DNA from: Limnobacter sp. 130
GTDB lineage: Bacteria > Pseudomonadota > Gammaproteobacteria > Burkholderiales > Burkholderiaceae_B
Reading direction: 5' to 3'
NCBI RefSeq assembly: GCF_902506325.1
Contig: NZ_LR732330.1
Coordinates: forward strand, 372,001-436,000
Length of the DNA stretch: 64,000 nucleotides
Shown here: in pieces, positions 18,459 to 22,356 of the stretch
Numbering within the stretch: position 1 is the first letter of the stretch
Layout of the letters: the number at the start of each line of letters is the position of its first letter
The notes under the pieces: model-generated
The model's database searches: none
Told to the model about the DNA's origin: nothing
The model's input: only the letters and a program-made list of their open reading frames with translations
Program-made: the position numbers and the translations under genes

Positions 18459-18487
18459 GGAACCATCTGCGGCTGTGCCAGCACTCA
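18459..18487 (+). promoter_or_regulatory. Putative ECF-type (hrp-box-like) promoter upstream of the sigma factor gene
   Basis: GGAACC (18459-18464), 16 bases, then GCACTCA (18481-18487) matches the HrpL hrp-box consensus GGAACC-N15/16-CCACNNA at all but one defined base. GGAAC is also the general -35 hallmark of many ECF sigma factors. It points at the sigma factor gene beginning at 18682, which would give a leader of roughly 190 bases. A single motif match can be chance; its position before an ECF gene and a chaperone-like gene is what makes it credible. Confidence 0.4.
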
Positions 18488-18549
18488 TGATCAAGATAGG
18501 AAATTTGTAGCGCGTGGTTAGCACACTTTTTAAGGCTAATAAAGCAGCA

Positions 18550-18578
18550 TGTCACCCCACCCCCTATCCATGGTGACA
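18550..18578. promoter_or_regulatory. Inverted repeat upstream of the ECF sigma gene
   Basis: TGTCACC (18550-18556) and GGTGACA (18572-18578) form perfect 7-base arms around a 15-base C-rich spacer, in the 288-base gap between parE and the sigma factor gene. It could be an operator or an RNA hairpin in the leader. No regulator can be assigned. Confidence 0.35.
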
Positions 18579-18681
18579 CCTCATTCGGACTTTTTGCAGC
18601 CTTGATACGCTGTGGCGTTATTTAAACCATTTGCCAAGGCCGACCATGATTCCACTTCCGTTTCAAGTAGAGAGGCTCGAC

Positions 18682-19257
18682 ATGAAACCGATTGCCCCCA
18701 AGTTAAAGATCACCGCAATTCAAAGGTGCTCGAGGGCGAATCTGGAAACAACCCGCTCGGAGTTCGAGTTGTTGGTGGCCAAGCAGGAAAAGCGGTTACG
18801 CAACTTCATCATCAAACATTTTCGTGATGAAAATGCAGTTGAAGATGTGTTCCAACAAACCCTGATTGAGGCTTACTGCTGCTGGGACAGTTTTCGGGGC
18901 GACGCAAAAAGAGCCACCTGGCTGTTCGGCATTGCACTGAACATTATTCGAAACACGGCCCGCCGCTCGCCACAGTATAAATTTCATTTCACCTCGGATG
19001 AAGATCTTGAACTGGAACAGGCAGAAGGCTCAGACCCCATGCAGCACTGCATGAAAAACGAGTTCAGCATCAAACTGGAATCGGCCATTGGAAATTTACC
19101 CAACGACCTGCGTGAGACCTTGATTCTGGTCGTTCAGCATGGCAATTCTTACCAGGAAGCGGCTGACATTCTAGGCATTCCAATTGGCACCGTGCGGTCA
19201 CGCATTTCAAGATCACGTGCGCAATTGAAATCAATCTACGATTTGTACATGGACTAA
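18682..19257 (+). CDS. ECF-type RNA polymerase sigma factor (first of two)
   Basis: This 191-residue sigma-70-family factor has region 2 at about 40-105 (QKRLRN-type start, DENAVEDVFQQTLIEAY, SFRGDAKRATWLFGIALNI) and region 4 at about 130-185 (LPNDLRETLILVVQHG, YQEAADILGIPIGTVRSRISRSRAQL). The ATG at 18682 has GAGAGG six bases upstream and lines up with the start of its paralogue at 21696-22301; ATG at 18646 and TTG at 18631 are alternatives. The stop overlaps the ATG of the next gene (TAATG), so the two are coupled. No anti-sigma factor is adjacent. It resembles the second ECF factor in this cluster closely enough to suggest duplication. Confidence 0.82.
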   Translation: MKPIAPKLKITAIQRCSRANLETTRSEFELLVAKQEKRLRNFIIKHFRDENAVEDVFQQTLIEAYCCWDSFRGDAKRATWLFGIALNIIRNTARRSPQYKFHFTSDEDLELEQAEGSDPMQHCMKNEFSIKLESAIGNLPNDLRETLILVVQHGNSYQEAADILGIPIGTVRSRISRSRAQLKSIYDLYMD

Positions 19258-19688
19258 TGAACGCAAATTTGTCGACCCGATATGGGGCACTCAACAAAAT
19301 TCTGGAGTCTTTGGGAATGAGTCCCAGCGACACCGAGCAATGTGCGGCCACAGACGGTTATCGAATCGATTTTGAAAAGAATTTCACAGTTGAATTGCAA
19401 CACTTGAGCGGCTCAGATTGCCGAGTAAGCTCGAGAGTATTCAGCCTGGGGAAATCGCTTCAAGTTCAGGAAAACCAGATCAAATTGGCCTTGGCCTTGT
19501 TCGGCGCGCTGAAAGACGACATGCCCGCTGGCGTATCCATTGCAATTTCACACCACGACAACTGTTTGCGGCTGTGTCTGGAAATTGTGAGTGAGAACAA
19601 CGACATTGTTATGACTCAATTTCAGGGATTTGTTCATGTGGCATTTGCCTACAAACAAACCTACTTCCAGAATAAAAGCGCAACCTAG
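19257..19688 (+). CDS. CesT-like type III secretion chaperone candidate
   Basis: This 143-residue acidic, soluble protein has no signal peptide. The layout fits class I type III secretion chaperones of the CesT/SycE fold. It has an N-terminal helix with LNKILESLGM, a strand region around FTVELQHLSG and a helix NQIKLALALFGALKDD. The strand pair SIAISHHDNCLRLCLEI follows, then a C-terminal helix FQGFVHVAFAYKQTYF. The similarity is by pattern only; I recognise no specific orthologue. It is translationally coupled to the ECF sigma gene by a one-base overlap. A chaperone that can release or bind a regulator would make sense in that place. It might instead be an unrelated small regulator. Confidence 0.45.
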   Translation: MNANLSTRYGALNKILESLGMSPSDTEQCAATDGYRIDFEKNFTVELQHLSGSDCRVSSRVFSLGKSLQVQENQIKLALALFGALKDDMPAGVSIAISHHDNCLRLCLEIVSENNDIVMTQFQGFVHVAFAYKQTYFQNKSAT

Positions 19689-19693
19689 CGTAT

Positions 19694-20032
19694 TCAATCC
19701 CGACTTTGCGCCGCACTAAGTTGATCAAGTAAAACCGCTTGCAGCCAAGCTTCGAATTTTTCCCTGGCAGCAAGCAGATTGATTGCAGACATGGCCATGG
19801 ATATTAGCAAGGTCGAATGCTCAGCCTCGTAAACACAGGTTTGCTCGAGAGACTTTGCTCGCCAACGTTGCGAAAGCCAGTTACGAAGGCAATTACTTTC
19901 ATAGCTGTTCAAGACAAGCGTGGCTTGGAAATCGGAGGGGCAAGAAGAGGATTGCAACAATTCGCCATGCCCCAAACCCTCAACAGCCTGCTGATCAATC
20001 AAGAACCAGTTTCCGGAAGCGCCAGGCGACAT
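19694..20032 (-). CDS. Unknown 112-residue protein
   Basis: I do not recognise this gene. It encodes a soluble 112-residue protein without signal peptide or membrane helix. The C-terminal half is predicted helical (ISMAMSAINLLAAREKFEAWLQAVLLDQL), and it contains several Trp and Cys residues. The ATG follows CCAGG at eight bases. It is the last gene of a minus-strand run (enhancer-binding protein, 69-residue gene, this gene), 14 bases after the previous stop and convergent with the CesT-like gene only five bases away. Its place in the cluster suggests a role with the sigma factors or a secretion system; that is inference. Confidence 0.5.
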   Translation of the reverse strand: MSPGASGNWFLIDQQAVEGLGHGELLQSSSCPSDFQATLVLNSYESNCLRNWLSQRWRAKSLEQTCVYEAEHSTLLISMAMSAINLLAAREKFEAWLQAVLLDQLSAAQSRD

Positions 20033-20046
20033 GAATAAACCTGGCC

Positions 20047-20256
20047 CTACACGATACCAGCGGTATCGCTGTGAACTTGCTGTGCAAGACTGCGGGGCGA
20101 AGTAAGGCCCGCAAAACGCTGCATGGCAAGGGGTTTCAGGGGGCGCGTATTCAGCTCGGAAAGAATGGATTTGAAGGTGCTGCGCGCGACCGAGCCAACG
20201 GAGTTTGCCGCATTGACTGCACCAGCCTGAATTGACGGGGTATTGGGATTAATCAT
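20047..20256 (-). CDS. Unknown small protein (69 residues)
   Basis: This short frame of 69 residues starts with MINPNTPSIQAGAVNAANSV. It is polar, rich in Ala, Ser and Asn, and has no Cys, signal peptide or membrane segment. Its size and composition are within the range of small secreted or filament-type type III proteins, but there is no motif to prove it. It begins 25 bases after the enhancer-binding protein stop. The ribosome site is poor, and a TTG start further upstream (20331) overlapping that gene is possible. Whether it is a real gene is uncertain. Confidence 0.35.
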   Translation of the reverse strand: MINPNTPSIQAGAVNAANSVGSVARSTFKSILSELNTRPLKPLAMQRFAGLTSPRSLAQQVHSDTAGIV

Positions 20257-20281
20257 TTGCAAGATGCCAATAAACTTAGTT

Positions 20282-21616
20282 TCATGAAAATTGAGTGGCT
20301 TTGCCAGCCAAAGGGTTCCCGACTTTCTCAAGAATATCGAAGCGTTTCATGCGGTAGTACAAGGAATGAACAGGTATGCCGAGACTTTCGCTGGCAAGGC
20401 GCACGCACCCCTGATGAGCGTGAAGTGTTTGAATCAACACTGCCTTTTCAAATGCCAGCAGCCGCTGCTTCAAACCCGTTGCGGGCTCAACGCCAACGGC
20501 CATGCAAGAAGGTGTACCCAGGCCGATGACATGACGTTGTGCAAACGCGTGCAACTCCCGTACATTCCCCGGCCAGGGTTTGCTCAAGAGTTCATCAATA
20601 TCGTCATGCTCAAGATCGGGCACCCCGAGTTTGAATTGTGTAGCCACTTCACCAAGAAAATGCCGATACAAGGGAATGATGTCTTCAAGTCGTTCAGCCA
20701 AGGCGGGAATGCGCACCTGAGATACGCTGAGTCGAAAATGCAGATCTTCCCGAAACTTCCCCTGCGCCACCAAAGTTTCCAGACTGGCTTTGGTGGAGGC
20801 AATGACCCTGAATGCAGCGCTGTAAGATGTTTGCCCACCCAGGCGCGTGGCCCCGCGATACTGCAAGGCATTTAATAACTTGGCCTGACAGGACAAAGGC
20901 AGGCTGTCCATTTCATCCAGATACAGCGTGCCATTGTGCGCCTGTTCCAGTTTGCCGGGTCTGTCTTTTAGGGCTCCGGTAAAAGCACCTGCCATCACGC
21001 CAAATACCTCGGCCTCGAAAAGTTGTTCTGGCAGCGCTGCACAGTTGACGTGAACAAACTCCCCCTTCACGCCAGACTGCGAATGTAACCAGCGTGCTGC
21101 GGTGTCTTTGCCAGCGCCTGTTGGCCCCAAAAGTACAGTATCAACAGGCAGTTGCTTTAATCGTTGAAGCTGGGATACCGCATGGCGCATGGGCTGTGAA
21201 CGCACGAACTCCTCGCTGTAAGGCCCGGGATGATTGGCATGAAATGGTTTTCGGTCTGATCTGAACGGCTTGGTGCGTGTCAGCTTTTCCAGTACTTGCA
21301 TGGCAGCCAATGGGTTGGCGGGGTGAACGATCGAAGCAAAAATAGGAATGTCGTGATAAACGTACTCTTGCCAGGGTGTTTCAATAAACCGGATGATCTG
21401 GGTTTCCGGATTACGCCCCTGTGCCTTGAAATGCTCGATTAAATCACCAATTGCTTCCAGCCCATGGTCCACCAACAACCAGTGTGCGGGCAGGTTGCGC
21501 TTGGCCATCAATTCAGCAAGTGACAATTCATGAACACTGGCCTGCATCAACAAAGCTGCTGCACGAAGTCGGCTTTTAAGTTCTTGCGATTCAATGCAAA
21601 GGATCAACTCGGTCAT
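20282..21616 (-). CDS. Sigma-54-dependent enhancer-binding transcription activator
   Basis: This AAA+ activator opens sigma-54 promoters. The 444-residue protein has an N-terminal domain of about 115 residues that looks like a degenerate receiver (LILCIESQELKSRLR, HWLLVDHG) without a clear phospho-acceptor. The AAA+ domain has Walker A GPTGAGKD (164-171), the sigma-54 contact loop GAFTGA (210-215), Walker B LYLDEMD (231-237) and WPGNVRELHAFA. A Fis-type HTH lies at the end (CVRLASESLGIPVHSLYYRMKRF). The ATG at 21616 is preferred over a GTG five codons earlier. It lies directly downstream of an ECF sigma gene that has a sigma-54 promoter. That recalls HrpRS controlling hrpL, although HrpS lacks the N-terminal domain. 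Confidence 0.88.
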   Translation of the reverse strand: MTELILCIESQELKSRLRAAALLMQASVHELSLAELMAKRNLPAHWLLVDHGLEAIGDLIEHFKAQGRNPETQIIRFIETPWQEYVYHDIPIFASIVHPANPLAAMQVLEKLTRTKPFRSDRKPFHANHPGPYSEEFVRSQPMRHAVSQLQRLKQLPVDTVLLGPTGAGKDTAARWLHSQSGVKGEFVHVNCAALPEQLFEAEVFGVMAGAFTGALKDRPGKLEQAHNGTLYLDEMDSLPLSCQAKLLNALQYRGATRLGGQTSYSAAFRVIASTKASLETLVAQGKFREDLHFRLSVSQVRIPALAERLEDIIPLYRHFLGEVATQFKLGVPDLEHDDIDELLSKPWPGNVRELHAFAQRHVIGLGTPSCMAVGVEPATGLKQRLLAFEKAVLIQTLHAHQGCVRLASESLGIPVHSLYYRMKRFDILEKVGNPLAGKATQFS

Positions 21617-21630
21617 TTGTAGCCTTGGCA

Positions 21631-21654
21631 CAATAAATTGAACAATATTTATTG
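21631..21654. promoter_or_regulatory. AT-rich palindrome (CAATAAAT-N8-ATTTATTG)
   Basis: Perfect 8-base inverted arms (21631-21638 and 21647-21654) lie just upstream of the enhancer-binding protein start, in the gap to the ECF sigma gene. One half-site, ATTTATTG, recurs at 22394-22401, about 40 bases upstream of the sigma-54 promoter of that ECF gene. It may be the binding site of the adjacent activator, used for autoregulation and as an upstream activating sequence. Confidence 0.4.
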
Positions 21655-21695
21655 TGAGGGCTGCTTACGCCAAATGAATCACCCCTTGGGATTAG

Positions 21696-22301
21696 TCAAT
21701 GCTGTGATTCTGACTGCGCCATCACCTCCACCCGAAGCATGTCCCTTGCACGAGACAATCGGGACCGAACCGTACCAATGGGCAAATCCAGCTCAAGTGC
21801 GGCGTCCTGATAAGTAAAACCCTCGAGCAAAACAAGCTGCACCACTGTTTGCATTTTGCCCGGAAGTTGATCAATCGCCGACTTCAGGGTTTCCATGCGC
21901 TCCTGGCGCATCAAGGACTCTTCGGGCTCGCAGATTGAATCGGCGGGAATCATGCTGATCTGCTCATCGAAATCGTCGCCTTGAAACCGAAAACTGGTGT
22001 CGCGGTAGCGAAAGTTTTTCACCAGGTTCAGTGCAATGCCAAACAGCCATGTCTCGGGTTTGGAGTCGCCACGAAAACGGGCCCAGTTGCGAAACGCGGC
22101 CATGTGCGTTTGCTGGATAAGATCATCCACATAATCCTCCCGGCGAAGGTGCTTGCGAACAAAATGGGTCAAGCGCGATCGCTGCGATTTCAACAAGGCT
22201 TCAAGCGTGCAAAGTTGTGCTGCGTTCAGCGGTGCGGGTGTGCTTTCATCAATACCCGACACGGTGATTTCGAACTGTTGAACGTTTGCGATTTGTTCCA
22301 T
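21696..22301 (-). CDS. ECF-type RNA polymerase sigma factor (second of two)
   Basis: This 201-residue sigma-70-family factor has region 2 (RREDYVDDLIQQTHMAAFRNW, then WARFRGDSKPETWLFGIALN) at about 45-110 and region 4 (LPGKMQTVVQLVLLEGFTYQDA, then LELDLPIGTVRSRLSRARDML) at about 140-192. It is clearly a paralogue of the factor at 18682-19257; both share the FRGD(S/A)K-TWLFGIALN and PIGTVRSR(L/I)SR blocks. The ATG has AGAGG at suitable spacing. A -24/-12 promoter lies about 40 bases upstream, so its expression is probably sigma-54 dependent, an unusual arrangement best known for hrpL. No anti-sigma gene is adjacent. Confidence 0.83.
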   Translation of the reverse strand: MEQIANVQQFEITVSGIDESTPAPLNAAQLCTLEALLKSQRSRLTHFVRKHLRREDYVDDLIQQTHMAAFRNWARFRGDSKPETWLFGIALNLVKNFRYRDTSFRFQGDDFDEQISMIPADSICEPEESLMRQERMETLKSAIDQLPGKMQTVVQLVLLEGFTYQDAALELDLPIGTVRSRLSRARDMLRVEVMAQSESQH

Positions 22302-22340
22302 GGCCTGCCTCTATTTGCTTGTGTGTGGTAACAAGCGTTG

Positions 22341-22356
22341 TGCAGTGTGCATGCCA
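22341..22356 (-). promoter_or_regulatory. Putative sigma-54 (-24/-12) promoter of the second ECF sigma gene
   Basis: The minus strand reads TGGCATGCACACTGCA, against the consensus TGGCACG-N4-TTGCW. The essential GG (-24) and GC (-12) are present with exactly ten bases between them, and 10 of 12 defined bases match. Transcription would start near 22330, about 30 bases before the ATG at 22301. The next gene downstream encodes a sigma-54 activator, which supports the call. Confidence 0.6.

Follow-up and report, generated by a model that had tools for sequence, protein, structure and literature searches.

Organization of the locus

The window, by which we mean the whole 64,000-nucleotide (nt) stretch of Limnobacter sp. 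130 analyzed here (contig NZ_LR732330.1, positions 372,001 to 436,000), carries between 18459 and 22356 the genes for two extracytoplasmic function (ECF) sigma factors, ECF1 and ECF2, along with those for a sigma-54 activator, a predicted type III chaperone, and two small proteins, sm112 and sm69. The locus is considered here as a putative control module of a type III secretion system (T3SS) encoded elsewhere in the genome. An hrp-box, ECF1, and the chaperone gene follow one another on the forward strand; sm112, sm69, the activator gene, and ECF2 come next, on the reverse strand (Table 1). ECF1 is flanked by a gene that we take to be parE-like, and a tRNA-Arg gene is located upstream of ECF2. 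Both ECF genes proposed in the initial annotation of this DNA are real, but conservation moves the start of ECF1 from 18682 to the ATG at 18646, and it favors the ATG at 21616 for the activator.

The same gene order is found in six further Limnobacter genomes (G034, G066, G090, G112, G131, and G147; with the window's genome, G000, these make the seven genomes referred to below). ECF1, ECF2, the activator, the chaperone, and sm112 were found in all six. The sequence of sm69 was recognized in four, and the other two have an open reading frame (ORF) in its place. Two genomes of the sister genus, which bring the set to nine, have one ECF gene, the activator, and parE, and are without ECF1, the chaperone gene, and the small genes.

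Table 1. Coordinates of features at the regulatory locus (window positions) and, in the last row, of motor-like genes at the T3SS
Feature	Position	Strand	Remarks
hrp-box of ECF1, GGAACC-N16-GCACTCA	18459..18487	+	About 160 nt 5' of the ECF1 ATG; kept in 7/7 genomes
ECF1, predicted HrpL-family sigma factor, 203 amino acids (aa) from ATG 18646	18646..19257	+	Pfam, relatives, tree
Predicted class I (CesT/SicP/ExsC-like) type III chaperone gene, 143 aa	19257..19688	+	ATG overlaps the ECF1 stop; fold matches
sm112, 112-aa protein	19694..20032	-	Second gene downstream of hrp-box; found in 6/6 further Limnobacter loci
sm69, 69-aa protein	20047..20256	-	First gene downstream of hrp-box
Perfect hrp-box, GGAACC-N15-CCACTCA	20292..20319	-	Lies inside the activator gene, near its 3' end; the sm69 ATG follows after about 36 nt
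Sigma-54 activator, 444 aa, ATG 21616	20282..21616	-	Receiver-like N-terminus, AAA+ domain, Fis-type helix-turn-helix
ECF2, predicted HrpL-family sigma factor, 201 aa	21696..22301	-	Pfam, alignment, tree
Putative -24/-12 sigma-54 promoter of ECF2, TGGCATGCACACTGCA	22341..22356	-	TGGCATGCACACTGC = 22356-22342; kept in 9/9 genomes
ZorA/ZorB-like genes of the window's genome	L014:1103-2877 (contig C3, ~1586103-1587880)		ZorA1 235 of 750 bits, ZorB1 337 of 400 bits, below NCBIfam cut-offs

Two sigma factors assigned to the HrpL family

Both ECF1 and ECF2 have sigma70 regions 2 and 4 that score above the respective Pfam cut-offs. Of 43 relatives from neither Limnobacter nor its sister genus, T3SS-like genes accompany 34 within the stretch that was fetched, and a -24/-12 motif, loosely defined, lies at most 400 nt upstream of 25. 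With these two sigma70 regions and with relatives in T3SS clusters, ECF1 and ECF2 are assigned by sequence to the HrpL (ECF32) family, which bears out the initial annotation's view of them as an HrpL-like pair.

In a phylogenetic tree, the ECF1 proteins form one group and the ECF2 proteins another, with the ECF of the sister genus in between. The other HrpL-like sequences, 39 in number, fall on one side of a branch (100/99), and ECF1, ECF2, and the sister-genus ECF lie outside it, the root being uncertain. The order of the sigma duplication is unsure because of the long branches. Among the four nearest genomes, the ECF1 protein is 95-99.5% identical while 38-71% of fourfold sites have changed, a pattern indicating that ECF1 is under strong purifying selection. 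Recent transfer as the cause of this conservation is ruled out by the divergence of synonymous sites.

Promoters at the locus

The sequence TGGCA-N6-CTGC upstream of ECF2 is kept throughout the nine genomes, sister genus included, and begins 54-59 nt 5' of the assumed start codon in the seven Limnobacter genomes. It is present as well in 11 of 12 further Limnobacter-type loci, a set that overlaps in part with the genomes already counted. Genome-wide, TGGCAYG-N4-YTGC has 20 matches, as opposed to 2 for the reversed control, and rpoN is present.

The motif before ECF1, GGAACC-N15/16-[GC]CAC over the seven genomes (with a spacer of 15 in one of them), recurs in all 12 further loci, much of the spacer varying. 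The motif before sm69, GGAAC[CT]-N15-[CGA]CACTCA, is kept in all seven genomes and stands at the same place in 10 of the 12 loci. They are called hrp-boxes here because they match the HrpL-dependent consensus GGAACC-N15-CCACTCAAT, as given in the available part of PMC3487950. Of the traits of HrpL, a gene driven by a sigma-54 promoter is thus seen by motif for ECF2 and not for ECF1, which has an hrp-box instead. The initial annotation had called a -24/-12 promoter on one ECF gene and a near hrp-box on the other, and conservation upholds both; it had overlooked the stronger box at 20319-20292.

The activator, the chaperone, and the small genes

The activator matches Pfam Sigma54_activat with 175.5 bits and has a Fis-type helix-turn-helix. 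In the structural model (overall predicted local distance difference test score, pLDDT, 62.1, better for residues 1-80), its first 115 residues follow the strand-helix order of a receiver. This N-terminus had no Pfam match to a receiver family at E<=1, and its profile found six matches among PDB sequences, the best at E 0.18, none of them a receiver. The PDB fold matches of the whole model, whose overall confidence is low, are sigma-54 activators, the best being the receiver-bearing NtrX and NtrC types, with NtrX on top. As we read the alignment, the lysine usual in receivers is not conserved. The N-terminus may therefore be described as a receiver-like domain that is probably not phosphorylated. 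Matches to the activator at E<=1e-60 occur in 25 of the 151 genomes of the family, and a match spanning the N-terminal domain occurs in nine only, seven of Limnobacter (the window's included) and two of the sister genus. Between ECF2 and the activator gene, at 21629-21656, lies a perfect inverted repeat, CACAATAAAT-N8-ATTTATTGTG, parts of which are also conserved at several other Limnobacter loci; it is a candidate operator.

The 143-aa protein encoded behind ECF1, which the initial annotation had called CesT-like, has no match in Pfam or NCBIfam. Its model (mean pLDDT 86.0) has the class I chaperone fold, alpha-beta3-alpha-beta2-alpha, and its PDB fold matches at E<=0.001, 13 in all, consist without exception of type III chaperones or component chains of chaperone complexes, VecA, ExsC, SicP, and SigE among them. 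It is accordingly predicted from the model to be a class I type III chaperone, in line with the earlier call. Neither sm112 nor sm69 matches Pfam or NCBIfam. As possible relatives of the chaperone, sm112 and a box-preceded 153-aa protein described below were both considered and set aside, profile comparison giving no match.

A type III secretion system on another contig

The genome of the window has two FHIPEP genes, one on contig C1 and one on contig C3. That on C3 is closer to the model of SctV (682.8 bits) than to that of FlhA (536.8 bits), and around it are SctJ, SctC, and SctR, all above NCBIfam cut-offs. For SctS, SctT, SctU, SctV, SctN, SctL, SctQ, and SctD, the T3SS model is the best match, below its own cut-off, and an SctI-like gene on C3 gives a weak match. 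By these profile matches, the genome carries a nonflagellar T3SS on C3, the regulators being on C1; the Sct genes rule out a genome devoid of such a system. The initial annotation saw a sigma cascade without a visible secretion apparatus, which is true of the window and untrue of the genome. It had taken the absence of both secretion genes and second-site promoters as the outcome that would speak against its cascade; a T3SS is present, and so are hrp-boxes beyond that of ECF1, including the one at 20319-20292.

Three other genomes (G090, G112, and G066) have an orthologous T3SS cluster, with SctV 69-72% identical to that of the window's genome. In G131 and G147, a more distant T3SS lies beside the same conserved 1289-aa gene, presumably putA, and SctV is 42-47% identical to the others and between the two. 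In G034, the 10 kb examined at this place contain no more of such a system than a part of SctV and two fragments resembling ZorAB. Across the family, 142 of 151 genomes match the SctC model at E<=0.001, a number to which other secretins contribute; SctC exceeds its cut-off in 25 of 151 genomes, including six of the seven Limnobacter genomes and G051 and excluding G034 and G012. The available part of one paper (PMC4557100) is unsure on the matter of a T3SS. No published account of the regulation of this T3SS, or of this regulator, was found, most subscription papers being out of reach.

One T3SS operon is headed in G000, G090, G112, and G066 by ZorA/ZorB-like genes, of the MotAB motor type, and G112 has a second such copy about 100 kb off. 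A search for ZorB matched nothing in G131 or G147; among 18 other T3SS genomes, eight gave matches, all of them weak (at most 26 bits). An ion-driven motor within a T3SS operon would be unusual, and no relevant literature tying ZorA/ZorB to type III secretion was found.

hrp-boxes beyond the locus

A two-part weight matrix, trained solely on the 14 boxes of the regulatory locus, was run over the T3SS regions of the seven genomes (both strands, about 470,000 positions, the best 12 sites per region being considered) and over 314,856 background positions. The background gave six matches of at least 15 bits, one of at least 16, and none of at least 17. Among the best 12 sites of each T3SS region, five reached at least 17 bits, all of them at the heads of operons and on the right strand: before the SctV operon in G112 and G066, before the ZorA-like gene in G112 and G090, and before the gene ahead of SctJ in G066. 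Two further SctV lineages have boxes at the SctV operon, of 16.3 bits in G131 and 15.3 bits in G147. As judged by the matrix, then, boxes at the heads of T3SS operons are clear in G066, G090, G112, G131, and G147, representing three SctV lineages, and they are weak in G034. In G112 and G090, an ORF of 185-190 aa lies between the box on the putA side and SctV.

The strict pattern matches 38 sites in the seven genomes, of which 30 were retrieved as loci and 10 were examined closely; several of the others may be due to chance. In the window's genome the pattern finds the two boxes of the locus and one before a 153-aa gene (C3:1026089), which is preceded by a box in four genomes (G000, G090, G112, and G147). 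In G131, GGAACC-N16-GCACTCA stands directly 5' of an ORF of the IpgD family (L168:1501-3028; Pfam E 4.9e-30). IpgD is a family of type III effectors, and this gene is a likely target of the module. A 195-aa ORF of G034 whose product looks secreted, and which has no Pfam match, is preceded by a pair of boxes separated by 82 nt (L169:1446-1528).

A box with an ORF also occurs in four genomes beside a gene that we take to be aroG (loci L056, L188, L189, and L181). The ORFs of G090 and G147, on the 5' side, are related, and those of G066 and G000, on the 3' side, are different; the box of G000 reads GGAACC-N16-CCACGAA. A single shared slot was considered and rejected, as both sides of aroG are occupied and only the ORFs of G090 and G147 are alike. 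The flanks of aroG resemble exchange sites for substrates.

A possible two-step relay and its alternatives

We think it probable, at roughly 0.7, that the locus is the regulatory module of the genome's T3SS, set apart from the machine and equipped with two HrpL-type sigma factors. To judge from its promoter, ECF2 would be started by the activator with sigma-54. The activator gene is probably transcribed from the same promoter, as it lies about 80 nt downstream of ECF2 on the same strand. An HrpL-type holoenzyme would then start the ECF1-chaperone operon and sm69/sm112 from their hrp-boxes, and ECF1, with or without ECF2, would use further boxes to transcribe the operons of the T3SS, the gene for the 153-aa protein, and substrate genes dispersed in the genome. 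The arrangement may be a two-step relay, with the box of ECF1 read by ECF2 rather than by ECF1 itself or by both, or it may be the amplifying loop considered below. In outline, the cascade put forward in the initial annotation is upheld. ExsC/ExsE couples secretion to transcription, and one might speculate that the chaperone and the two small genes could do likewise, in the manner of ExsC/ExsE, BtrA/BtcB, or HrpV/HrpG. A broader proposal, to which we give slightly less than even odds, is of a genus-wide, two-tier HrpL relay: a fixed, unlinked regulator presiding over three SctV lineages swapped at one place, with feedback through chaperone and small proteins in the second tier.

A number of observations weigh against such a module. 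As a bare pattern, GGAACY-N15/16-SCACTYA shows no clear enrichment: the window's genome has 3 matches (two of them at the locus) and the reversed control 4, while the totals for the seven genomes are 38 and 30, respectively, so the evidence for the boxes lies in conservation and position. (The looser GGAACC-N14-18-CCAC, with 17 matches to 129 for its reversed control, is uninformative.) Of 20 tests of operon heads, 13 gave p<0.05, the pre-SctJ, SctI-side, and putA-side positions having been picked after the scan; for the eight heads of SctV operons and ZorA-like genes, four gave p<=0.0023 and four p>=0.10. The genome that holds the window has poor boxes at its T3SS (p=0.46 for the SctV operon, with cGAACT-N16-CCACCTA; p=0.26 for the ZorA-like operon; p=0.55 ahead of SctJ). 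One of its four tests was passed, by the box before the SctI-like gene (p=0.008), and the highest-scoring site of its T3SS region, at 16.9 bits, falls within an unrelated ORF and has the wrong orientation. ECF1 is much more conserved than the T3SS proteins, and G034 retains the activator, both sigma factors, and the chaperone, with no more than a remnant of a T3SS found where the machine usually lies. Directly 5' of the ECF1 start, at about 18602-18614, is a conserved element, ttgNtacNct, that could be a second promoter. Finally, ECF1 and ECF2 resemble each other in their recognition regions, so any division of targets between them is putative.

The last point leads to a variant of the module that departs from the relay in its second step. 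Perhaps both sigma factors read the same box, and ECF1, once started by ECF2, amplifies itself along with its regulon. Such a loop is somewhat less likely than not. Regions 2 and 4 of the two proteins align closely, the last helix above all, and the boxes of ECF1, sm69, and the T3SS amount to one motif with a spacer of 15 or 16; against this, the separate groups of ECF1 and ECF2 in the tree and their unequal conservation suggest different duties.

It is unlikely, though consistent with the weak T3SS boxes of the window's genome, that the module has come to serve a different or broader regulon, its hold on the T3SS being partial or ancestral. G034, with its regulators and boxes kept beside a T3SS remnant and its double box before a secreted-looking ORF, fits this idea, as does the variation of SctV lineages between species under the same regulator. 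It accords poorly with boxes at the operon heads of three SctV lineages, with a type III chaperone as the operon partner of ECF1, and with an IpgD-family gene as a likely target. That the motifs are fortuitous, two ordinary ECF genes standing beside an unrelated sigma-54 activator, is very improbable: the near-control counts of the bare hrp-box would allow it, but the sites are conserved at specific positions in 7/7 and 9/9 genomes, HrpL relatives lie beside T3SS genes, and matches at operon heads rise above background.

Comparison with known systems

In Pseudomonas syringae, according to the available parts of PMC8999054 and PMC8228185, a sigma-54 activator of the HrpRS type drives the gene for HrpL (ECF32), which reads hrp-boxes before T3SS genes. 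The Limnobacter locus is similar in its sigma-54 activator, its sigma-54 promoter on an ECF gene, and the hrp-boxes before T3SS genes. It differs in having two HrpL-like genes and in being unlinked to the T3SS. The second of its sigma genes is overlapped by a chaperone gene and has an hrp-box in place of the sigma-54 site. HrpR and HrpS are paired activators without a receiver domain, whereas the Limnobacter locus has a single activator bearing a beta-alpha, receiver-like N-terminus. A betaproteobacterial likeness is offered by HrpL of Herbaspirillum rubrisubalbicans, with the consensus cited above (PMC3487950, available part).

The available part of PMC10732220 describes BtrS of Bordetella as an ECF sigma factor for type III secretion and assigns a CesT chaperone to the antagonist of BtrS. 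BtrS/BtrA/BtcB and the Limnobacter locus would thus share an ECF sigma factor for a T3SS and a CesT-type chaperone, a likeness by description and not by BtrS sequence. BtrS is under the control of BvgAS and a secreted anti-sigma factor, and that part of the paper mentions neither a sigma-54 step nor a second ECF.

Roseateles sp. YR242 (L121 and L124) likewise has two HrpL-family genes in one genome, one of them beside T3SS genes. They lie about 26 kb from each other, and the tree does not group them with the Limnobacter pair. Perhaps they act in parallel rather than in series, since both have a loose -24/-12 motif. No paper was found that joins two ECF sigma factors, a cascade, and type III secretion. 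In the literature consulted, HrpL cascades have a single sigma gene in or near the machine cluster; in Limnobacter the sigma gene is doubled and apart from the T3SS.

Limnobacter is an aquatic genus reported from algal cultures. If the module acts as proposed, it would provide a natural test both of the contribution made by a second sigma tier (threshold, delay, or memory) and of the way a regulator can survive the exchange of its machine. The boxes would offer, besides, a direct route to listing the substrates of these systems.

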